The position numbers and the translations under genes are program-made. A model generated the notes under the pieces. It was not told the origin of the DNA and made no database searches. It saw nothing but the letters and a program-made list of their open reading frames with translations. Shown here piece by piece: positions 24,342 through 37,565 of a stretch of 64,000 nt of DNA; position 1 is the stretch's first letter; the number at the start of each line of letters is the position of its first letter. This DNA is from Herpetosiphon geysericola. Its GTDB lineage: Bacteria; Chloroflexota; Chloroflexia; Chloroflexales; Herpetosiphonaceae. The stretch lies in NCBI RefSeq assembly GCF_001306135.1, contig NZ_LGKP01000008.1, positions 1 to 64,000 of the forward strand, read 5' to 3'.

Positions 24342-27300
24342 TTACCGAGTGGTCATTGGGACGAAGATTTGATACTTATTGGCTTGGGTACTATTGGTGT
24401 TAGCTGGGCCATACTCGTTGGTGCTGCCATCGAGTTCGGTTTCAACCAACCAATAGTAGTAGGTGCTGCTATCGTCAACGTTGGTGTCGATCCAGCGATA
24501 GCTTGCACCACCGCTGCGGCCTTGAGCAGCGATCATACTGCTGGTAACCTTGGTAGCATTGGCCCGATTGCGGTCGTTGCTACGGTACAGATGGAAGCCC
24601 AAGGTCTTCGATTCGCTGACAGTTGTCCACTGAACTGCCACCTTGCCAGCTTCACGGATTGCGCTGAAATCAGCCAACTCGATGGCGTTGGGTGTGGTTA
24701 CGCCAGCATAGACTGAACCATTGTTATCGCCTGGAGCCAAGACAATAACGCCAGTCGTGCCTGTGTTAGGGTCAACATCGCTGTCACTGGCATCGTTACC
24801 CATATCATCGTGGGTAAAGACGAAGCCTGGAGGCAAGTTGTCGAAGCCAACGATATAGCTGCCTGGTGGCAAGTTGTTGAATTGATAGCCGCCATTGGCA
24901 TCGGTGGTCGTGCTGATGATTGCCGTACCGTTGATGTCATAGAGCGTGACAATCACGCCCGGTACGCCACTATCGCCTGGGGTATATTGGCCATTAGCAT
25001 CGGTATCGTACCAAACGATGCTTCCAAGGCTGGCTGGCATAAATACCCCAAAGTCGATGCTCAAGTTGCTGTTGGCGCTGCTATCGCCGTCGTTGGTTGG
25101 CTCGCTATTGGCCAAAACCGTGACGACTGAGCTCTTGATACCGCCGGCGAAGGTGATCCCGTTATCATCGTCGTTAATGTCGTTATCGGGGTCGCTGGCT
25201 GGCTCGAATGGCGTTGGTTGAGCGCCAAAGTTGCCAGTGCTGCTGACATAATGTTCGAGCACTCCGCCTGTAGCAAAGTTACTGCTTGGCAATACTACGA
25301 TGTAATCACCAGGAAGTGCACCGGTAAACAAATAGTTGCCGTTAGCATCGGTGAGGGTATTTGCAACCATTTCACCAGTGTCTGGTTGATTATTGGCATT
25401 GGTATCGCGATAGATAGCAACCGCCACATTTTCCATGCCAGTTTCACTGCCGTCAACGATGCCATTGTTGTTAATATCGTTCCAAACCAAGTCGCCTACG
25501 CTGACTGGTGTGTAAACCCCAGCATCCCAGCTCATGTCGTTTTCGCCAGCCGCCAAGTCGATGGCGGGAGTTAAGCCAGTTCCAACATCAACATCGCTAT
25601 CAACGGTGTCGTCGCCGCCAACGTTTGGTGTGGTAAATTCCATGCCAACTGGTTGTTGGAATTCGATTGTGTAGCTCGCTGGAATCAAGCCTGTGAAGCT
25701 GTAAACCCCAGTTGGATCGGTCGTTTGGGTATCGACCAAAGCGTTGCTATTGTCGTAGATGCGGATAATTACACCGCCAACGCCTGGCTCTGTGCCGTCT
25801 TGAATGCCGTCGCCGTCTTGATCTTCCCAAACCAAGTTGCCAACACTGGCTAATTCATAGATACCTGCGTCGATGGTTGGGTTGTTCTCAGCCGAAGTCA
25901 AGGTAATTAATGTGCTCAAGCCGTTGGCTGGGTTGGCATCGCTATCGATTGCGTCGTTTGCTCCAACATTAGCTTGGCTGAAGTTGTAGTTGGCTGGCTT
26001 GGTGAATTCGACATAATAGCCAACGCCTGGCATCAATCCAGTGAATTGATAGCTGCCATTGACCGTGGTGGTTGTGTCGATTACCACATTGCTGCTATCG
26101 AGCAAGTTGACCGTCAAGCCGTTCACGCCAGTTTCGCCACTATCTTGGATGCCGTTGATATTGGTATCGTACCAAATGGTGTCGCCCAAGCTGGCCAATT
26201 GATACAAGCCTGCATCGATATTCGGATTGGAATCGCCGCTGGCAAGCGTGACGGTTGCTGCTTGACCAGTGGTTGTGTCAGCGTCGCTATCAACGGTTGG
26301 GTCGCTGCCTGCGCCTTGTTGGGTGAAGAAGTAGCCGCTTGGGGCGACAAATTCAACCAAGTAGGAGTTTGGTGGCAATTGACCAAAGAAGTAATCGCCG
26401 ATTGCTCCGGTGAAGGTGCTGCTAATCGCTGCGCCATCAGGTGTGCCATCGGTGTTGTTGTCGATGTACAAGCGCACGGTCACATTGGCAATGCCCTGTT
26501 CGTTGCCATCTTGAATTCCATCAACATCGAGATCGTGCCAGACATAGTTGCCTAATCCAGCCAGTTGATAAATACCTGCATCGATCGTGGCGTTGTAGCT
26601 GCCAACATTGATTGTGACCAAGCCGCTACAGCCAGTGATTTGGTTGGCATCGCTGTCGTTTGCTGGGTTGCCGCCAAGATTTGGCTGAGTGAAGACATGG
26701 CCTGCTGGCAAATCGCTGAACTTGACCAAGTAGCTGCCTGGTTGCAAATCGCCAAAGCTATAGTTGCCAGTGCCGCTGGTGATTTGACTGCCGACCACGA
26801 CATCATCGGCGGTACATGGTTGGTTATCGGGGCCAGGCGTGTAGAGCGTTACGGTTACGCCGCCAACGCCATTTTCCGTGCCATCTTGGATGCCGTTGCC
26901 ATTGGTATCGAACCAGACATAATTGCCCAAGCCGCCCAAGGTAAAGACCCCAAAGTCGAGCGAACGATTGGTATTTGGGTCGGTGTCGCCGTCATTGGTT
27001 GGCTCGCTGCCAGCATTCAAGCTGATCGCGTTGCTAGCGATGACCCCAGTTGTACCAAGTGTGCCAATGGTTGATCCATTGTCATCGTTGTTGATGTTAT
27101 TATCGGGGTCGCTGGCAGGTTCGCTGCTGCCGCCAGTTGAGCTAGCCCAACCTTGCAAAATATTGCCAGTTGTAAAGTTGCCCGCTGGCAAGACCACAAT
27201 ATAGTTACCTGGCAAGAGTTGATCGAAGTTGTACAAGCCGCCAGCGATCGTGGTGGTTTGGCGGATGAAGCTATCGCCAGCATCGAAGCTGCCATCGCCA

Positions 27301-30300
27301 TCATCAGCATACAAGGCCACGGTTACGCCAGCGATGCCGGTTTCGCCACCTGAGACCAAGCCATCATTGTTGGCATCATCCCAGACCAAATCGCCAAGGC
27401 TGAGTAATTGATAGAAACCGAAGTCAACCGTTAAGTTGCTGTTGGCATCGATCGAGCCGCCCGTGCCATTGCTATCAGCTTCGCTGGTTGGCTCGGCACC
27501 TGCGGCGAGGCTGAAACATGCGCTTTGAACGCTGCCCGTTGTGCCAAGTGCGCCAACGACTGAGCCGTTGTCGTTGTCGTCGGCGTTGTCGCTATCAGGA
27601 TCGAGGCCTGGCTCGAAAGCTCCCGTTGCACCGGTTGCGCCAGTGCTGCTGCTGAAACCAACCAAGACTCCAGCGCCCATGAAGTTGCTGCTTGGGATGG
27701 CAACACAATAGTCACCAGCTAATACATTGTTGAACAAGTAGTAGCCGCTAGCATTGGTTTGCACGCTGGCGACCGTTGGCGCATCGGCGGCATCGATTGC
27801 GCCGCTGCTGTTGCGATCCATATACAGATCGACGGTCACGTTGGCAATGCCGGTTTCGCCGTTGTTGCGCAAGCCATCGTTGTTGGCATCGTTCCAAATG
27901 CGGTTGCCAAGGCTCAATGGTTGGAAGACCCCAAAGTCAACCGTCAAGTTGCTGAAACTATCGGGCGTGATGTCGCCGCTGCCGTTGGTTTCACCAGTTG
28001 GTTCGCTGTTGTCGGCCAAGGTTACGCTGGCGGTTTGAATTACGCCCGTCGTGCCCAGCGTGCCAACGATTGTGCCGTTGTCGTCGTTATCAATGTTGTT
28101 ATCAGGATCGGGAGCAACTTCGTAGGCTCCGGTTGGGCTGCCTGCTGTGCCTGTGCTGCTGGTGTAGCCGACCAACGCGCCTGTGCCTAAGAAATTGCTG
28201 GCATCAAGCTCAATCACATAGTTGCCTGCGCTGAGCACTGTAAAGTGATAGTAGCCTGTGGCGTTTGTCGTAGTTGTGCTGAGTACCGTACTTGAACCTT
28301 CGCGGTACAAGTTGACAGTTACACCGCTGATTCCAGTTTCGCCAGCGTTGAAAACACCATTGTTGTTGGCATCGTTCCAAATGTAGTTACCAACCGCTAA
28401 TGGTTGATATGCGCCTGCATCGACTGAATCGTCATTTTCGCCAACGCCCAAGGCGATGATGCCAGCACATCCTGTGGCATTTGCATCACTATCGATCGTA
28501 TCGTCGCCGCCAACATTTGGTTGGGTAAAGACATAGCCTGCGGGCAAACCACTGAATGAGATGACATAATTGCCTGGCATCAAGCCTGCAAAATTGTAAG
28601 CGCCTGAAGCTGGAGTGGTTTGGTTACCAATCACGACATCATCGGCGGTACATGGCAGGTTATCCGCACCTGGAGTTGCTAAAGTTACGGTGATATTGCT
28701 CAGCCCTTGCTCAGCGTTATCGAAGATGCCGTTATTGTTGGTGTCGTACCAGACCAAATTGCCAATGCTGCCTAATGGGAAGACCCCTAAATCAAGGCTT
28801 AGGTTGGTATTTGGGTCGGTGTCGCCGTCGTTGGTTGGCTCGCTGCCAGCATTCAGGGTGATTGCTTGGCTCGCGATAACCCCAGTTGTGCCGAGGGTGC
28901 CAATGGTTGATCCATTGTCATCGTTGTTGATGTTGTTATCGGGGTCGCTGGCAGGTTCGCTGCCGCCACCCGTTGAACTAACATGATTTTCCAACACGTT
29001 GCCTGTGGTGAAATTGCCAGCAGGCAGTACGACCAAATATTCACCAGGTAATAGGTTGGCGAAGCTATAAATTCCGCCAGCGATCGTGGTGGTTTGGCGG
29101 ATGAAGCTATCGCCAGCATCGAAGCTGCCATCGCCATCATCAGCGTAGAGATCGACATTTATGCCAGCGATGCCCGTTTCGCCGTTATTGAACAAGCCAT
29201 CGTTATCAGCATCGCGCCAAATCAAATTACCAAGGCTGGGCAATTGATAGAAGCCGAAGTCAACCGTTAAGTTGCTGTTGGCATCGATCGAGCCGTCAGT
29301 GCCATTGCTGTCGGCTTCGCTGGTTGGCTCGGCGCCTGCGGCAAGGCTGAAACAGGCGCTTTGAACGCTGCCGGTTGTGCCAAGTGCGCCAACGACCGAG
29401 CCGTTGTCATTATCGTCGGCGTTGTCGCTATCGGGATCGAGGCCTGGCTCGAAGGCTCCTGTTGCGGCGGCTGCACCCGTGCTGCTGCTGAAACCAACTA
29501 AGACTCCCGCACCCGTGAAGTTGCTGCTTGGAATGGCAACACAATAATCACCAGCGAGTAAATTGCTGAACAAATAGTAGCCGCTAGCATTAGTTTGCAC
29601 GCTGGCGACCGTTGGGGCATCGGCAGCATCAATCACGCCGCTGCTGTTGCGATCCATATACAGATCGACGGTCACGTTGGCAATGCTGGTTTCGCCGTTA
29701 TTGCGCAAACCATCGTTGTTGGCATCGTTCCAAATGCGATTGCCAAGGCTGAGTGGTTGATAGACCCCGAAGTCAACCGTCAAGTTGCTGTTGGCATCAA
29801 CGGTTGCATCGGCGCTGCCGTTGGTTTCACCAGTTGGCTCGGCCCCTGCGGCAAGGCTGATCGCGGCACTCTTGATCACGCCAGTGGTTCCCAGCGTACC
29901 AACAATTGAGCCGTTATCGTCGCTATCAATGTTGTTATCGGGATCGGGTGCTGCTTCGTAGGCTCCGCTTGAGCTGCCTGCAGTGCCCGTGCTGCTGGTG
30001 TAGCCAACCAACGCGCCTGCACCTAAGAAGTTGCCGACATTCAGTTCAATTTCATAATCGCCAGCGCCAAGCAGGCCAAAGTGATAGTAGCCTGTGGCAT
30101 TGGTGGTAGCTGTGCCAAGTACGGTGCTTGAGCCAGCGCGATAGAGTGTGACTGCTACGCCGCTGATTCCAGCTTCGCCACCATTGAAGACACCATTGTT
30201 ATTCGCATCGTTCCAAACGTAGTTACCGACCGCCAAGGGTTGGAACAAACCAACATCCAACGTGGTATCGTCGGTTGAACCATTGGCATTATTGACAATC

Positions 30301-33300
30301 GTCGCGCTTTGCGCACCAGCATTGCCTGGAGTTAATGTTAATTGGGCAGTGCTGACGATTGCGCCGCTAGTTGAGCCGTTATCATCATTATTAATATTGT
30401 TGTCGGGATCGGGTGCTGGCTCATAGGTGCCAGTTGCACTACCAGAAGTGCCAGTGCTGGAAATATAGTTGGCTGGTGGTGTGACCTCGATGTAATAATC
30501 GCCAGGCAACAAGCCAGCAAAACTATAATTACCGCCGCCAGTCGTGCTGGTGCTCGCAATCAAGGTATTTGATGAATTGTAGAGGGCAACATTTACCCCA
30601 TTGATCCCCGATTCGCCAATATCCAACAAGCCATTATTATTAGCATCTTCCCAAATGCGATTGCCGACGCTCAGCTTGAAGAATCCAAAATCAACCGAAA
30701 GATTCGTGCCAGTGGCTGGTTCAACAGGATCAGTGCTACACAAATCGGTTTCATTGGTTGGTTCATTGCCGCCAAGCGTAATCACATGGCTCAAAACCCC
30801 ATCAGTCGCGAGGGTTGGGCCTTCGATGCCATTATCATCGTTATCGAGATCGTTATTGGCACTGCCAGACGTAACTGTACTGCTACGATAGCCAGCGAGT
30901 GGATTGCCAAGCGTAAAGTTGCTAGGATTGATTCGAACAACGTAGCTTTCGGGAGCCAGGCCATCGAAGCGATAGCAACCAACGCTGGTGGTGGTTTGAG
31001 TGCTCAGGGCCGTGCCGCTATCGGGAATCCCGTTGGCATCGCTATCAGCAAAGAGGCTGACGCTGACACCACTAATGCCTTGTTCGCCAGCATCGAATGT
31101 GCCGTTATTGTTGGTATCGTACCAAACGCGGTTGCCTAGGCTATAGGTGGTAAAACCGATGTCATAGCTATGGTTGTTATCGCCAGCAACCCCAGTATTA
31201 AAGGTAATAACTGCATCAGCGCCAGTGATCGTTGCATCGGAGTCGCGAACATCGCTATTCGTGCCACTATTGCTATTTGCCGCCGTCAAAACCTTGTTGG
31301 TTAGTGCTGCTTGAACTGAAGCAACCCGAATTGAGTAGCCAGTTTGGTTTGGTTGTAAGCCAGCGATGTTGAAAATAGTGCTGGCTGTGCTAGTACCAGC
31401 CAACGATGAGAAACGATAGTTGCCATTGGCGTCAGTTGTGGCGCTACCTAACAAGGTTGTGCCATTAGGCGCATACAAGCGCACGGCTACGTTCGCTAGC
31501 GCAGCCTCATTAGCATCCTGAATCCCATCACTATCGGTATCGTTCCAAATCCGATTACCAATTTCAATTGGCGCGGCATCGCACAAGGCTTCGAGGTCGC
31601 CTAAACCACCAGCTTTAGCCAGCGTGTTAGGTTGGACATTGCTATCGTAAATCCGGTAAGCCCGAGTCCGAGCGCCAGTGCTATTGTTGAGCCACAAAAT
31701 CCCGCCATCGAAATATTGGGCTGAATCGAAAATTGGGTCATAGATCGTTTGGACAATATCAGGCTTGCCTGGGATTTGTAACAAGCCACCGAGCGAGACT
31801 TCGGCGTGCTCTGGGTAATTATCGCGGAAGTAATATTCGCCGCCGCCTGGGCCTTCGTTCGTGCCAGCGCCAGCGGTACTGGTGCTACCACAAGTACCAT
31901 TGCTTTCGAGCGTCCAGCCGCTGCCATTGCTACAAGCTCGCAAAATATCGCCAGCTGAGTCGCCAATGTAGAGTGTGGAATCGCCAACAGTGGTGTTATT
32001 TTGGTTATAGCCCATTTGATCGCTGAAACGGTCGCGGAGGCCCAAAATCATGTTGCCGTTATCAAATTCGATGTCGGTCAACATTGGTTGTGGTTGCACA
32101 TACTCGCCGCCAAAGTTGGTGTTGGTGACGGTAAAGTTGGTGCGCCATGGGTTCCAGTTGGCGCTAGCACAACCAGGCACAACCGCACAACCACGAGTGT
32201 GATTCAATGGGAAGTTCAACACTTGGGTAAAACTATCGGTGTTTGGATTAAATTGATAGACATAAGCCCGCAGATTGGTGGCGTTAGCCGTTGATTGGGC
32301 CGAACAAACCATCCCAATATAAACGAGGCCTTCGTTGACGGCCACAGCATAAGGCCGATGATCATTAGTGGCACAATCGGTTGGATCGGGCACGACAAAG
32401 CGACCAATCGCAGCGGCGCTGGGCGCGGTTGGAGTTAGGCCAATTGGAATTTCATACAGTTGACGATCAGCTAAGTTGATTGTCCAAAGCGTGGTTTGAT
32501 CCTCGGAAATATCCATATCGCCGAGGGCAATTTTGCCTACTGGGTCCCATGCTGCTGAATCGTGGACTAGATCGGTGCCGTTAGGGTGCGGATCGACCCC
32601 AGCAGTACCAGCCCCAAACACAGTATTCAAATCCAGAAACAAACTGACTGTGCGTGGGCTAGGGGTAATGCGGTAAATTGCGCCTGTGCCGCTTGGCCCA
32701 AAGCCAACGTGGCGTTTCATAACGGCGCTGGCAAACAAGCTGCGTGATGAGCGTTGCCAAGCCAAACCGAAGGTTGGGCCAGTTTCAGCGCCGAAGGCCA
32801 AATCGGTTGGGGCTGGGCTATCAACGCCTGGAGTTGGGCTATTGCCAGTGTTCCCAGCGGTGTAGGGGAAACTTACAATCGAGTGAAAGGTTGATGAGGG
32901 CGCTTGATCTTGGCGGCCCATGCTAAAACAGTTGGTTACCAAGGTTGGGTTATCTTGGCAGTAGTTGGCTGGGTTGTTAAAACCCATGTTGGCGGAAGCA
33001 GTGCTGCCTGCAACAAACAACACGGTTGAGCCTGAATTGCTACCCATTGGGCCAGATTTGACCGTTGCTGGAGCATTGCTAAACTCAACCCGATATGGGC
33101 CAGTATAGATTGGATCGCTGTCGGTCAACGAGTAATTACCAGTTGCGTTGGTCGTCGTTGTGCCAACGATGGTATTGCTAGCATTGTAGAGCGTGACGGT
33201 TACACCGCTAATGCCTGGCTCTAAGCTATCGATTACGCCATTGGCGTTGTAATCGCGATAGGCACGACCGCTGATCGTGGCAGCAGCATAGGCGACAGAG

Positions 33301-33395
33301 CCAGCACTTGGCAACAAAGTAATTGCGAATGCTACCAATAAGGTGCAACACACAACCAGTGTGCTGAATGAATAACGAGAGGATGCTTGCTTCAT
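24342..33395 (-). CDS. Giant SdrD_B-repeat surface protein (3017 residues)
   Basis: A secreted multidomain adhesin-like protein. A signal peptide (~11-37, ending AYAA) is followed by one SdrD_B module (ISGRAYRDYNANGVIDSLEP, ~40-107), a long non-repetitive region (~110-620) that looks propeller-like (IALGDMDISEDQTTLWTINL), then 16 further SdrD_B modules, each starting with a [LV]GN.[VI]WxDxNxNG-type calcium-binding motif. Modules 5-8 and 9-12 are two copies of a four-module unit of about 612 residues. The C-terminal ~100 residues look Fn3-like (VQWTTVSESKTLGFHLYRS). No LPxTG or membrane anchor is present. GAGG lies nine bases before the ATG. It follows the LPRTS protein gene by 24 bp. Confidence 0.93.
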   Translation of the reverse strand: MKQASSRYSFSTLVVCCTLLVAFAITLLPSAGSVAYAAATISGRAYRDYNANGVIDSLEPGISGVTVTLYNASNTIVGTTTTNATGNYSLTDSDPIYTGPYRVEFSNAPATVKSGPMGSNSGSTVLFVAGSTASANMGFNNPANYCQDNPTLVTNCFSMGRQDQAPSSTFHSIVSFPYTAGNTGNSPTPGVDSPAPTDLAFGAETGPTFGLAWQRSSRSLFASAVMKRHVGFGPSGTGAIYRITPSPRTVSLFLDLNTVFGAGTAGVDPHPNGTDLVHDSAAWDPVGKIALGDMDISEDQTTLWTINLADRQLYEIPIGLTPTAPSAAAIGRFVVPDPTDCATNDHRPYAVAVNEGLVYIGMVCSAQSTANATNLRAYVYQFNPNTDSFTQVLNFPLNHTRGCAVVPGCASANWNPWRTNFTVTNTNFGGEYVQPQPMLTDIEFDNGNMILGLRDRFSDQMGYNQNNTTVGDSTLYIGDSAGDILRACSNGSGWTLESNGTCGSTSTAGAGTNEGPGGGEYYFRDNYPEHAEVSLGGLLQIPGKPDIVQTIYDPIFDSAQYFDGGILWLNNSTGARTRAYRIYDSNVQPNTLAKAGGLGDLEALCDAAPIEIGNRIWNDTDSDGIQDANEAALANVAVRLYAPNGTTLLGSATTDANGNYRFSSLAGTSTASTIFNIAGLQPNQTGYSIRVASVQAALTNKVLTAANSNSGTNSDVRDSDATITGADAVITFNTGVAGDNNHSYDIGFTTYSLGNRVWYDTNNNGTFDAGEQGISGVSVSLFADSDANGIPDSGTALSTQTTTSVGCYRFDGLAPESYVVRINPSNFTLGNPLAGYRSSTVTSGSANNDLDNDDNGIEGPTLATDGVLSHVITLGGNEPTNETDLCSTDPVEPATGTNLSVDFGFFKLSVGNRIWEDANNNGLLDIGESGINGVNVALYNSSNTLIASTSTTGGGNYSFAGLLPGDYYIEVTPPANYISSTGTSGSATGTYEPAPDPDNNINNDDNGSTSGAIVSTAQLTLTPGNAGAQSATIVNNANGSTDDTTLDVGLFQPLAVGNYVWNDANNNGVFNGGEAGISGVAVTLYRAGSSTVLGTATTNATGYYHFGLLGAGDYEIELNVGNFLGAGALVGYTSSTGTAGSSSGAYEAAPDPDNNIDSDDNGSIVGTLGTTGVIKSAAISLAAGAEPTGETNGSADATVDANSNLTVDFGVYQPLSLGNRIWNDANNDGLRNNGETSIANVTVDLYMDRNSSGVIDAADAPTVASVQTNASGYYLFSNLLAGDYCVAIPSSNFTGAGVLVGFSSSTGAAAATGAFEPGLDPDSDNADDNDNGSVVGALGTTGSVQSACFSLAAGAEPTSEADSNGTDGSIDANSNLTVDFGFYQLPSLGNLIWRDADNDGLFNNGETGIAGINVDLYADDGDGSFDAGDSFIRQTTTIAGGIYSFANLLPGEYLVVLPAGNFTTGNVLENHVSSTGGGSEPASDPDNNINNDDNGSTIGTLGTTGVIASQAITLNAGSEPTNDGDTDPNTNLSLDLGVFPLGSIGNLVWYDTNNNGIFDNAEQGLSNITVTLATPGADNLPCTADDVVIGNQTTPASGAYNFAGLMPGNYVISFSGLPAGYVFTQPNVGGDDTIDSDANATGCAGIIALGVGENDDSVDAGAYQPLAVGNYIWNDANNNGVFNAGETGISGVTVNLYREGSSTVLSTTTTNATGYYHFTVLSAGNYVIELDASNFLGTGALVGYTSSTGTAGSPTGAYEVAPDPDNNIDNDDNGTIVGTLGTTGVIQTASVTLADNSEPTGETNGSGDITPDSFSNLTVDFGVFQPLSLGNRIWNDANNDGLRNNGETGIANVTVDLYMDRNSSGAIDAADAPTVASVQTNASGYYLFNNVLAGDYCVAIPSSNFMGAGVLVGFSSSTGATGATGAFEPGLDPDSDNADDNDNGSVVGALGTTGSVQSACFSLAAGAEPTSEADSNGTGGSIDANSNLTVDFGFYQLLSLGDLVWDDANNDGLVSGGETGIAGVTVALYADDGDGSFDAGDSFIRQTTTIAGGLYNFDQLLPGNYIVVLPAGNFTTGNILQGWASSTGGSSEPASDPDNNINNDDNGSTIGTLGTTGVIASNAISLNAGSEPTNDGDTDPNTNRSLDFGVFTLGGLGNYVWFDTNGNGIQDGTENGVGGVTVTLYTPGPDNQPCTADDVVVGSQITSGTGNYSFGDLQPGSYLVKFSDLPAGHVFTQPNLGGNPANDSDANQITGCSGLVTINVGSYNATIDAGIYQLAGLGNYVWHDLDVDGIQDGNEQGIANVTVRLYIDNNTDGTPDGAAISSTFTGAIGDYFFGQLPPNSYLVEFVAPSGYFFTQQGAGSDPTVDSDADTTTGQAATVTLASGDSNPNIDAGLYQLASLGDTIWYDTNINGIQDSGETGVNGLTVNLLDSSNVVIDTTTTVNGSYQFTGLMPGVGYYVEFTKPANYNFSQANVGANDAIDSDANPANGLSTLITLTSAENNPTIDAGIYELASVGNLVWEDQDGDGIQDGTEPGVGGVIIRIYDNSNALVDTQTTDPTGVYSFTGLIPASYTIEFQQPVGMEFTTPNVGGDDTVDSDVDVGTGLTPAIDLAAGENDMSWDAGVYTPVSVGDLVWNDINNNGIVDGSETGMENVAVAIYRDTNANNQPDTGEMVANTLTDANGNYLFTGALPGDYIVVLPSSNFATGGVLEHYVSSTGNFGAQPTPFEPASDPDNDINDDDNGITFAGGIKSSVVTVLANSEPTNDGDSSANSNLSIDFGVFMPASLGSIVWYDTDANGQYTPGDSGVPGVIVTLYDINGTAIISTTTDANGGYQFNNLPPGSYIVGFDNLPPGFVFTHDDMGNDASDSDVDPNTGTTGVIVLAPGDNNGSVYAGVTTPNAIELADFSAIREAGKVAVQWTTVSESKTLGFHLYRSNDRNRANATKVTSSMIAAQGRSGGASYRWIDTNVDDSSTYYYWLVETELDGSTNEYGPANTNSTQANKYQIFVPMTTR
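26565..30238 (-). repeat. Two tandem copies of a 1.84-kb four-module unit inside the giant gene
   Basis: Matching sequences recur at a constant spacing of 1836-1840 bp, for example near 26968 and 28808, 27421 and 29257, and 27809 and 29646. At protein level the order is A (NDANNNGVFN, LYR.GSSTVL), B (NDANNDGLRNNGE, LYMDRNSSG), C (ADDGDGSFDAGDSF) and D (TPG.DN.PCTADDV), then the same four again. Copies of B and C are nearly identical in DNA, which points to a recent duplication or ongoing gene conversion. Borders are approximate. Confidence 0.85.
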
Positions 33396-33419: not shown

Positions 33420-34025
33420 CTAAACGGCGCGTCGTTGAATGCCAAAACCGATCAGAGCGACTAGTAAACCCAATAAGCCAATAAACCACAAGCCAGCTGT
33501 ATCTGCGCTGCTCGTGCGTGGCAATGGCGGTTGGTTGCCTGCTGGTGGTGCTGCTGGCTTGGCCGTTGGCTGCGGCATAGGCGTGGCACTTGGCATAGGC
33601 GTGGCACGTGGTTGTTCAGGGCTTGGCGATGGGCTAGGAATACCTTGCTCAGGGGTTGCAGTTGCCGTGATGCCTGGCACCGAGATAATTGGTGTGACGG
33701 TTGGCTCAATGCTTGGGGCTTGAGTTGGTGCTACCCCAGTTGGCTGAGCGATGCTGGTTGGCTCAACGGTGACCCGTGGCTCTGGGGTATTCGTTGGTAA
33801 GGGTGTATTGGTTGGGATGATTGGTTCAGGAGTATTCGTCGGTAAGGGCGTATTAGTTGGGATGATTGGTTCAGGAGTATTCGTCGGTAAGGGTGTATTA
33901 GTTGGGGTCGGTGGCTCGGTTGGGGTTAATGCCAATGGCCCAACATCCGCAGCATGCGAAGGTTGAGTTGGTAGAGTCACGAGAGCGATCAGCAGAATTA
34001 TTAGGCTTCGAATGAACCACGTCAT
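33420..34025 (-). CDS. Thr/Pro-rich surface protein with sortase-signal-like C-terminus
   Basis: A 201-residue protein: signal peptide (~3-25, ending SHAA), a Thr/Pro-rich stalk including three 15-residue repeats (PTNTPLPTNTPEPII type), then LPRTSSAD, a hydrophobic helix (GLWFIGLLGLLVALIGFGI) and a basic tail (QRRAV). This is the layout of a cell-wall sorting signal, with Ser in place of the usual Gly of LPxTG. I chose the ATG at 34025, with GGGAG eight bases upstream. It is 24 bp upstream of the giant SdrD_B gene, so co-transcribed; it may help to anchor or display that protein. Confidence 0.75.
   Translation of the reverse strand: MTWFIRSLIILLIALVTLPTQPSHAADVGPLALTPTEPPTPTNTPLPTNTPEPIIPTNTPLPTNTPEPIIPTNTPLPTNTPEPRVTVEPTSIAQPTGVAPTQAPSIEPTVTPIISVPGITATATPEQGIPSPSPSPEQPRATPMPSATPMPQPTAKPAAPPAGNQPPLPRTSSADTAGLWFIGLLGLLVALIGFGIQRRAV
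33774..33912 (-). repeat. Three 45-bp tandem repeats coding for PTNTP-rich stalk
   Basis: The sequence GTATTCGTCGGTAAGGG-type 45-bp unit occurs three times in a row, with the first two nearly identical. Each codes for PTNTPLPTNTPEPII or a close variant. Copy number is likely to vary between strains. Confidence 0.8.
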
Positions 34026-34329
34026 ACAAGCTACTCCCACATCAAAGGGCTGACCTATTCACTGATCGCGAATCGTGAAATCGGCATGACCCAAGCAACG
34101 AAACATTGAATAAGGACAATTCGCTTGTTTGACCGTAGCAGAGGCGATCTTTTGGTAAGCCAATAACCCTAGATCGATGCTTACGAATGATTGAATACTA
34201 TCTAGGCTAAATGGGCTACTTCCTTATGGTTACTTGTAAGGGGGAGGATTGGTAGAAGAGTACGGGAGATAAATATAAAACGCCCTTGATCAAATGATCA
34301 AAGGCGTTTTTGGTAGTTCCAATAACAGC
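34026..34329. other. Intergenic region with promoter of the surface operon
   Basis: The gap between the trypsin-like protease gene and the LPRTS protein gene holds no gene. Apart from the terminator at 34277-34310 it should contain the promoter for the minus-strand LPRTS/SdrD_B operon; I cannot name a specific box. Confidence 0.4.
34277..34310 (-). terminator. Terminator after the trypsin-like protease gene
   Basis: AAAACGCC-C-TTGATCA pairs with TGATCAA-A-GGCGTTTT, giving a long stem with one mismatch, flanked by A on one side and T on the other. It works in either direction but sits 19 bp past the protease stop. Confidence 0.8.
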
Positions 34330-36480: not shown

Positions 36481-36496
36481 TGAAGCTACGCAAGCG

Positions 36497-36524
36497 ACGG
36501 GCTACCCAAAACGTGGTAGCCCGT
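36497..36524. terminator. Bidirectional hairpin terminator
   Basis: ACGGGCTACC and GGTAGCCCGT form a 10-bp perfect stem with an 8-nt loop between two convergent genes (GDPD and the roadblock fusion). A TTGTTT stretch follows on the plus strand. Confidence 0.75.
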
Positions 36525-36531
36525 TGGTTGT

Positions 36532-37392
36532 TTAAGCGGCGTGGAGTTGGGTTGCGCTTGGTTGGGGTTGCAAGGCAGCGTTGAGATCACGGCGCAGGGC
36601 TTCAATATCGCCTAAATCATCATCGCACAGCATAGTAACCAAATAATCCCCAAGGGTTTCGACAATCAGCGTGCCTTCATCTGCATGGAGAATTAAGGCA
36701 CTGGCCCAGCCCAATTCGCAGGCATAGCCCATTTGGCGATAGACATCTAACAAGGCTTTTGATAAGCCACTAATTCGTTGATGGCTGCTGGATTTGGTGA
36801 AGCTTAGCGCGCAGGTTAGGCCTTCGTGGGTTGCTAAGGCAATGCCGCGCAAGCGATAGTGTGAAACATTAACTAAGTTATTGAGAATTTGTTGCAAGTG
36901 GGCATGGCGCTGGGCGGTTGCTGGCGCAAGCTTAATCGCATTAGCAACCAAGCGATACAAGGTGCTAATTTGTTGCATTTCGCAGCTAGCAACGGTAGCG
37001 TAGCTCGATGTGCCCAACGCTTCGCGCATGGCCTCGCTGCTCAGCGCATTTGGGGCTTGACCTCGGGTTGCAGCAATAATTAACGGCTTGCCCAAACGAA
37101 AAGCCTGCTCTTCAAGCTCATTGACAAAATAGCCACTATCAACCGAAGGCTGGCAGCCATCGACAAAGGTAATCGTGGCTAGCGCCCGCTCCATCAAGCC
37201 GCTACCCAATTCCTCGTAGGTAGTTTTGGGAATCGCCAGCAAACGAATACTGGTGGTGGTGGTTAATCGATATTCACCAATATGCACAGCGCCAGTGGTT
37301 GGGCTGAGTGGTTTTAATGTATAGCTGCTGCTAATGGTTTTCAAGCATTGAATGCTCGCTTCGCCATCACCAGTCAAAATTATGGTATGCAT
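36532..37392 (-). CDS. Degenerate small-GTPase domain fused to roadblock/LC7 domain
   Basis: A 286-residue protein. The N-terminal half follows the Srprb/CvnD-like GTPase pattern position by position (YEELGSGLMERALATITFVD, PLIIAATRG, MREALG, ASCEMQQISTL), but the P-loop GxxxxGKT reads TGDGEASIQC and the NKxD element reads TRGQ, so nucleotide binding is unlikely. The C-terminal ~115 residues fit a roadblock/LC7 domain (LQQILNNLVNV...ALATHEGLTCALS...LIVETLGDYLVTML). Roadblock proteins normally act as GTPase partners (MglB to MglA). The ATG at 37392 has GGAGG six bases upstream. Confidence 0.65.
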   Translation of the reverse strand: MHTIILTGDGEASIQCLKTISSSYTLKPLSPTTGAVHIGEYRLTTTTSIRLLAIPKTTYEELGSGLMERALATITFVDGCQPSVDSGYFVNELEEQAFRLGKPLIIAATRGQAPNALSSEAMREALGTSSYATVASCEMQQISTLYRLVANAIKLAPATAQRHAHLQQILNNLVNVSHYRLRGIALATHEGLTCALSFTKSSSHQRISGLSKALLDVYRQMGYACELGWASALILHADEGTLIVETLGDYLVTMLCDDDLGDIEALRRDLNAALQPQPSATQLHAA

Positions 37393-37565
37393 GCGATGCC
37401 TCCGCCGCAGAATAGGTGCTAGCTGCACGCGAATAGTGCTCCACACACTACACTCTATTTTGCACTTTTCTGCATCACTTTAAACGGTACTTTGGGTTGA
37501 TTCGGCTATGGGATTTTGGTTTTGCTTCGTGCGACCTGCGAACTACGGTCGTATAGGCTGCATGG

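Follow-up and report, generated by a model that had tools for sequence, protein, structure and literature searches.

The window analysed here, 64,000 nucleotides of Herpetosiphon geysericola DNA (contig NZ_LGKP01000008.1, positions 1 to 64,000), contains a gene that we call fusion 1 (F1). It occupies positions 36532-37392 on the minus strand and encodes 286 amino acids followed by a stop codon. An open reading frame had been placed at these coordinates in a preliminary description of the locus, and it is present there; the strand, missing from that description, is now assigned as minus. Herpetosiphon is a gliding bacterium.

The F1 frame opens with an ATG at 37392, preceded by a GGAGG ribosome-binding site (37399-37403, minus strand). 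The 54 nucleotides before this start (37393-37446, minus strand) are nearly invariant across six genomes, while the synonymous sites of F1 vary. An alternative start at GTG 37446 was rejected: GGAGG precedes the ATG at 37392, and all five codon differences that the six genomes show in this frame are non-synonymous. Because each of them changes an amino acid, the segment, though conserved, is likelier to be a 5′ leader, probably untranslated, than coding sequence; it is possible that this leader is regulatory. In the F1 region, the search against Rfam gave two sub-threshold matches only (E 0.53 and 0.85), and the promoter scan a single sigma-70-like match, situated within the coding region, for a mean of 1.4 in shuffled sequence.

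Downstream, a hairpin with no strand assigned (36495-36526) separates F1 from a convergent glycerophosphodiesterase (GDPD) gene. Its z-score is -3.57, with 0 of 200 shuffles equally stable; in a congener (G004) both of its arms are altered and pairing is preserved. The T-tail scan marks it on the plus strand only. It is probably a terminator shared by the two genes. Upstream of F1 lies a gap of 173 bp. Besides the GDPD gene, the neighbours are two predicted secreted or lipoprotein genes; the operon on C44 of the source genome, discussed below, is not adjacent. Synteny was checked in three of the six genomes, all three named Herpetosiphon genomes, and the neighbourhood is kept in them, with an abhydrolase gene partly matched in one (L087) and unmatched in another (L088).

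Two surface-type genes lie elsewhere in the window. The first (24342-33395, minus strand) encodes a predicted secreted protein of 3017 amino acids with many repeated modules, which we take to resemble SdrD-type B repeats. The second (33420-34040, minus strand) encodes a predicted surface protein rich in proline and threonine; at its end, LPRTS is followed by a hydrophobic helix and then a basic tail, an arrangement presumably akin to a sortase signal.

Domain structure and nucleotide site of F1

Residues 1-157 of F1 (36922-37392, minus strand) form a pseudo-GTPase domain of Ras/Arf-like G-domain fold, recognized by profile and by structure match; residues 158-286 (36535-36921, minus strand) form a roadblock/LC7 domain, recognized by profile, DSSP and structure match. 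A hidden Markov model of 28 intact GTPase relatives, drawn from the genus and the order and excluding both fusions described here as well as GTPase rows scoring no more than 100 bits, matches residues 31-154 with an E-value of 6.4e-8. A second model, of 17 roadblock relatives, leaves out a partial copy of the second fusion (L037) and all rows of 175 amino acids or more; it matches residues 160-251 with an E-value of 1.5e-9. Within that target set, 400 shuffled copies and 266 other open reading frames of the window reach E-values of 1.0 (GTPase) and 0.57 (roadblock) at best. These controls score far worse than F1, and chance resemblance of its halves was rejected. The GTPase-like N-terminal half and roadblock-like C-terminal half proposed in the preliminary description are thus borne out; the homologues with an intact P-loop for which it suggested a search were found, and it is profiles built from such relatives that match F1.

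General libraries respond less. Neither Pfam nor NCBIfam gives a GTPase match for the G half, or any match of note for the whole protein. Pfam Robl_LC7 gives F1 12.0 bits, short of its cut-off of 23, and PF04670 (Gtr1_RagA) is not matched at E up to 10, in a search whose HMMER filters drop most weak matches. Searching PDB sequences with F1 yields one weak match, an entry titled "Roadblock/LC7 domain protein" (E 0.0049, residues 168-259).

The AlphaFold2 model of F1, computed from a 48-row alignment, has a pLDDT of 84.5 and a pTM of 0.76; as rows in that alignment came from GTPases and roadblock proteins, the model supports the profile result without being independent of it. According to DSSP, it displays the strand and helix order of a G domain followed by the alpha-beta-beta-alpha-beta-beta-beta-alpha order of a roadblock domain. 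Residues 142-174 make up a single helix of 33 residues, in which the last G-domain helix runs on as the first roadblock helix. The first 18 Foldseek matches, from the PDB, are all Rag/Gtr or LokiRagO chains of about 270-305 residues, spanning both domains, at E-values from 1.6e-12 to 6.4e-8. Taken separately, the G half aligns with ARF1 in VIA-align (Z 16.5, 149 residues aligned, 2.5 Å) and the roadblock half with the Asgard roadblock 9jue_A (Z 15.9, 115 aligned, 2.5 Å). Over both domains, the rmsd to the Rag/Gtr matches from Foldseek is about 16-18 Å; since the single domains fit well, their relative placement in the model differs from that in Rag/Gtr. An absence of GTPase similarity in the predicted fold, or homologues lacking the roadblock region, had been named beforehand as observations that would count against a fusion. 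Neither occurred: both folds are predicted, and the roadblock half is present in all six orthologues. By computation, F1 is a bacterial protein that carries a pseudo-GTPase and a roadblock domain in one chain, where the two follow each other as they do in eukaryotic and Asgard Rag/Gtr proteins.

The nucleotide site is degenerate at three motifs. G1, the P-loop, reads GDGEASIQC (residues 8-16; 37345-37371, minus strand), with no GK[ST]; G3 reads AIPKT in place of GTPGQ (residues 53-57; 37222-37236, minus strand); G4 reads TRGQ in place of [NT]KxD (residues 109-112; 37057-37068, minus strand). The strings TGDGEASIQC and TRGQ occur in F1 just as they had been written down before. All 21 of 21 intact relatives have Gly-Lys in G1, Gly in G3, and both Lys and Asp in G4. 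In all six F1 orthologues, G1 Gly-Lys is replaced by Ala-Ser, G3 Gly by Lys, G4 Lys by Arg and G4 Asp by Gln or Asn, so the degeneracy noticed earlier in a single sequence extends to the whole set. The Ser/Thr that follows the P-loop Lys is lost in all six too, having become Ile, and about 12 residues are missing from the switch I region. Both switch I threonines and the first P-loop Gly are retained in six of six orthologues; the G3 Pro is also retained. From these replacements F1 is predicted to lack functional GTP binding, as the preliminary description expected; the signalling scaffold that it proposed is likewise a prediction. With its G-domain fold and motif loss conserved across orthologues, F1 is a predicted pseudoGTPase.

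Conservation, a second fusion and distribution

Orthologues of F1 occur in six of six Herpetosiphon genomes, the other five being 90-98% identical to it (98% in Herpetosiphon llansteffanensis, 97% in H. giganteus and 91% in H. aurantiacus DSM 785). A contig scan with the single F1 sequence, which reaches close relatives only, returned three loci, all from Herpetosiphon. The dN/dS ratio ranges from 0.015 to 0.097 over all 15 orthologue pairs, from 0.000 to 0.106 in the N half and from 0.027 to 0.092 in the C half; one pair of the intact GTPase gives 0.094. Judged by these ratios, the N half is constrained to the same degree as the C half and the intact GTPase, both halves are under strong purifying selection and F1 is a working gene. 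The loss of motifs and the very long branches described below might be expected of a decaying pseudogene of a GTPase-roadblock fusion, but none of the six orthologues has a stop or frameshift and dN/dS is at most 0.097; we consider decay extremely improbable and, with purifying selection in both halves, rejected this reading as far as sequence allows.

A second GTPase-like/roadblock fusion, F2, is encoded elsewhere in the source genome (C10:26547-27428; 294 amino acids from its ATG), on contig C10, F1 being on contig C45. F2 has diverged strongly from F1, and each of the six Herpetosiphon genomes has an orthologue of it as well. With 23.4 bits, the F2 roadblock half clears the Pfam Robl_LC7 cut-off of 23, and its G half matches the GTPase model at E-values of 8e-6 to 1.4e-3 across the six orthologues. 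The P-loop of F2 keeps Lys-Thr, with the preceding Gly changed to Pro; G3 and G4 are lost. Its AlphaFold2 model has a pLDDT of 78.2 and a pTM of 0.51, and the first six Foldseek matches are Rag/Gtr proteins over both domains. Three of the 15 pairs, chosen for equal lengths, give a dN/dS of 0.134-0.151. F1 and F2 share about 20% identity, and their profiles show no significant match to each other (probability 0.4 and 1.4%). One genome (G001) has an extra F2-like copy, limited to the roadblock half (L037:1465-1965, minus strand); a three-frame view upstream of it showed no clear G half.

The profile searches for fusions covered Chloroflexota. Among the matches listed from 400 genomes of this phylum, with at most six candidates scored per genome, 12 are uninterrupted over both domains, namely the F1 and F2 copies of six Herpetosiphon genomes. 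A search of 158 genomes of the same class, with up to 16 candidates per genome and E up to 1e-60, lists the same 12. Elsewhere in the Chloroflexota searched, GTPase and roadblock are separate genes, sometimes set apart by one in-frame stop. In a sister genus (G007, L010:1780-1860, minus strand) the two genes share one frame, and what separates them is a single TAG plus four codons. This two-domain match was rejected as a fusion, the TAG inside it making two genes; read-through of the TAG would yield a GTPase-roadblock fusion. In three genomes from another family of the class, a roadblock gene comes directly after a GTPase gene, with hardly any gap from the stop of the one to the start of the other (G442, L129:2261-3175; G444, L130:2039-3016; G443, L131:470-1384), and in these the GTPase carries the STRPxTF motif of the C46 type. 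G442 and G444 were rejected as fusions in the same way: each match contains one stop and was read as two separate genes.

Relatives and likely origin

On C44 of the source genome, an intact GTPase gene (269508-270083) overlaps a roadblock gene by 8 bp, within this genome's copy of a Chloroflexia operon of DUF4388, GTPase, roadblock and protoglobin genes; G1, G3 and G4 of this GTPase are intact. When three types of roadblock profile were tried, F1 scored 28.6 bits with that of the C44 operon and 8.2 with the next, and F2 66.1 bits with the C44 type and at most 27.2 with the others. The G half of F1 is less telling, with nearly equal scores against the C44 and C46 GTPase profiles (17.0 and 15.9 bits), and phmmer found no match between F1 and the MglA-like protein of the source genome. 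Derivation from an MglA/MglB-type pair, as advanced in the preliminary description, is therefore unlikely for the roadblock half, which points to the C44-type operon more than to the MglA/MglB pair proper (C5, L024); the GTPase half is too diverged to be placed.

In a tree of G domains, F1 and F2 sit on branches of 8-9 changes per site and neither can be placed. In a tree of roadblock domains, F1, whose branch is 4.3 changes per site long, groups within the order's C44-type roadblocks, nested among those of other families and apart from Herpetosiphon's own; F2 is unplaced. Grouping F1 and F2 as one clade is neither supported nor rejected (AU p 0.083), and they could be two separate fusions.

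On sequence grounds, the likeliest source of the F1 roadblock half is a DUF4388-GTPase-roadblock-protoglobin operon. Three observations, namely the adjacent or near-touching genes in relatives, the C44-type roadblock scores and the roadblock tree, make duplication of an operon followed by fusion the likeliest origin of the fusions. The ancestor would have been a duplicated operon of this kind with abutting GTPase and roadblock genes, which the loss of a stop codon or a small change of frame would have joined. Two fusions in one bacterial genus, together with a gene pair held apart by a single stop in a sister genus, show how easily the Rag layout could arise from an operon.

GTPase-roadblock fusions are best known from eukaryotic Rag/Gtr and from Asgard archaea, and figure in discussions of how eukaryotic membrane signalling arose (PMC10933270, PMC4917890). 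Such fusions (in eukaryotes and Asgard archaea) and pseudoGTPases (in eukaryotes) are thus known already, and F1 is a variation on these kinds; in the open-licence PMC literature we found no paper on F1 itself. Like F1, RagA-D, Gtr1/2 and the Asgard LokiRagO (8yl2) are single chains of about 270-305 amino acids with the G domain first and the roadblock at the C terminus. Identity is however about 10%, F1 has lost the nucleotide site (by sequence) and has no PF04670 match, and the domain orientation differs in its model. The MglA/MglB and CvnD/CvnB systems contain the same two domains, functionally paired according to PMC4316618 and PMC9481161, but as separate proteins with an active GTPase. 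The C44 operon has the roadblock that best matches that of F1, and a GTPase gene directly upstream of it; there too the genes are separate and G1, G3 and G4 intact, whereas F1 is fused and has lost these motifs.

Possible roles

Our best explanation, to which we give a probability of about 0.45, is that F1 originated by fusion within a duplicated operon and, as we infer for its role, acts as a non-switching, constitutive adaptor or competitor. F1 would no longer switch. Its roadblock half would dimerise as other roadblock domains do, with itself, with F2 or with a free roadblock protein, and the pseudo-G domain, rigidly joined to it and locked in a single shape, would offer a binding surface independent of nucleotide. 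Such a fixed surface is the most likely use of this domain because it is predicted to be unable to switch and yet is kept under selection. F1 might in this manner tune active GTPase-roadblock circuits, in a way comparable to the pseudoGTPase domains of p190RhoGAP. Roadblock domains dimerise and, in the form of MglB, act on a partner GTPase (PMC9481161). The p190RhoGAP domains, as described in PMC5593906, share with F1 the G-domain fold; they do not bind nucleotide, belong to one chain with a GAP domain, and support the GAP activity of their own protein. However, p190RhoGAP is a eukaryotic RhoGAP with no roadblock, and its pseudoGTPase status comes from crystal structure and assay, that of F1 from sequence and model.

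It has to be weighed whether F1 and F2 pair via their roadblock domains into a single Rag-like heterodimer, a bacterial counterpart of RagA/RagC in which both nucleotide sites were lost and a fixed platform remains. Both fusions are present in six of six genomes, Rag/Gtr proteins are the best matches of both models across the two domains, and for a Rag-like pair from Asgard archaea contact by way of the roadblock domains has been predicted (PMC10933270); but the two genes lie on different contigs and their profiles do not recognize each other significantly, and we hold this pairing to be unlikely. The same doubt attaches to a broader proposal, in which the two pseudo-GTPase-roadblock fusions, dimerised via their roadblocks and devoid of a switch, would form a Herpetosiphon platform capturing active GTPase-roadblock circuits, for example protoglobin-linked ones. 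If true, bacteria would here have invented the Rag layout independently, starting from an operon pair.

A sensor, binding nucleotide or another small ligand in a non-canonical pocket, would accord with the preserved fold, with the retention of the first P-loop Gly and of both switch I threonines in all six orthologues, and with the Lys-Thr kept in the F2 P-loop after its Gly-to-Pro change. It becomes improbable in view of what F1 has lost: Lys and Ser/Thr in G1, Gly in G3, Lys and Asp in G4, and a stretch of about 12 residues in the switch I region. No better placed is recruitment of F1 to an unrelated local role with the two secreted or lipoprotein genes and the glycerophosphodiesterase, the GTPase circuit being irrelevant. 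The neighbourhood is conserved in the three named genomes, but the 173 bp gap, the conserved leader and the terminator-like hairpin before the convergent GDPD gene make F1 look like its own transcription unit, and a local role seems quite improbable to us. As predicted bacterial pseudoGTPases, F1 and F2 are small and testable, and they are tied to a domain that acts as a GAP in MglB-type systems.

The C44 operon (L115:4575-6908) includes a protoglobin gene (PF11563, E 1e-27) beside its roadblock, GTPase and DUF4388 genes, and a protoglobin gene stands likewise beside such genes at three further loci (L123, L128 and L135). These clusters suggest a globin-linked GTPase circuit. Similar-looking clusters, with a different gene order, were seen in other families of the order. 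Protoglobin next to roadblock and GTPase genes recalls HGbRL of Methylacidiphilum, a globin-roadblock fusion. As reported in PMC4476040, HGbRL is a genus-restricted roadblock fusion for which an origin by duplication and fusion has been proposed; the partner of its roadblock is a globin, that of F1 a GTPase-like domain.
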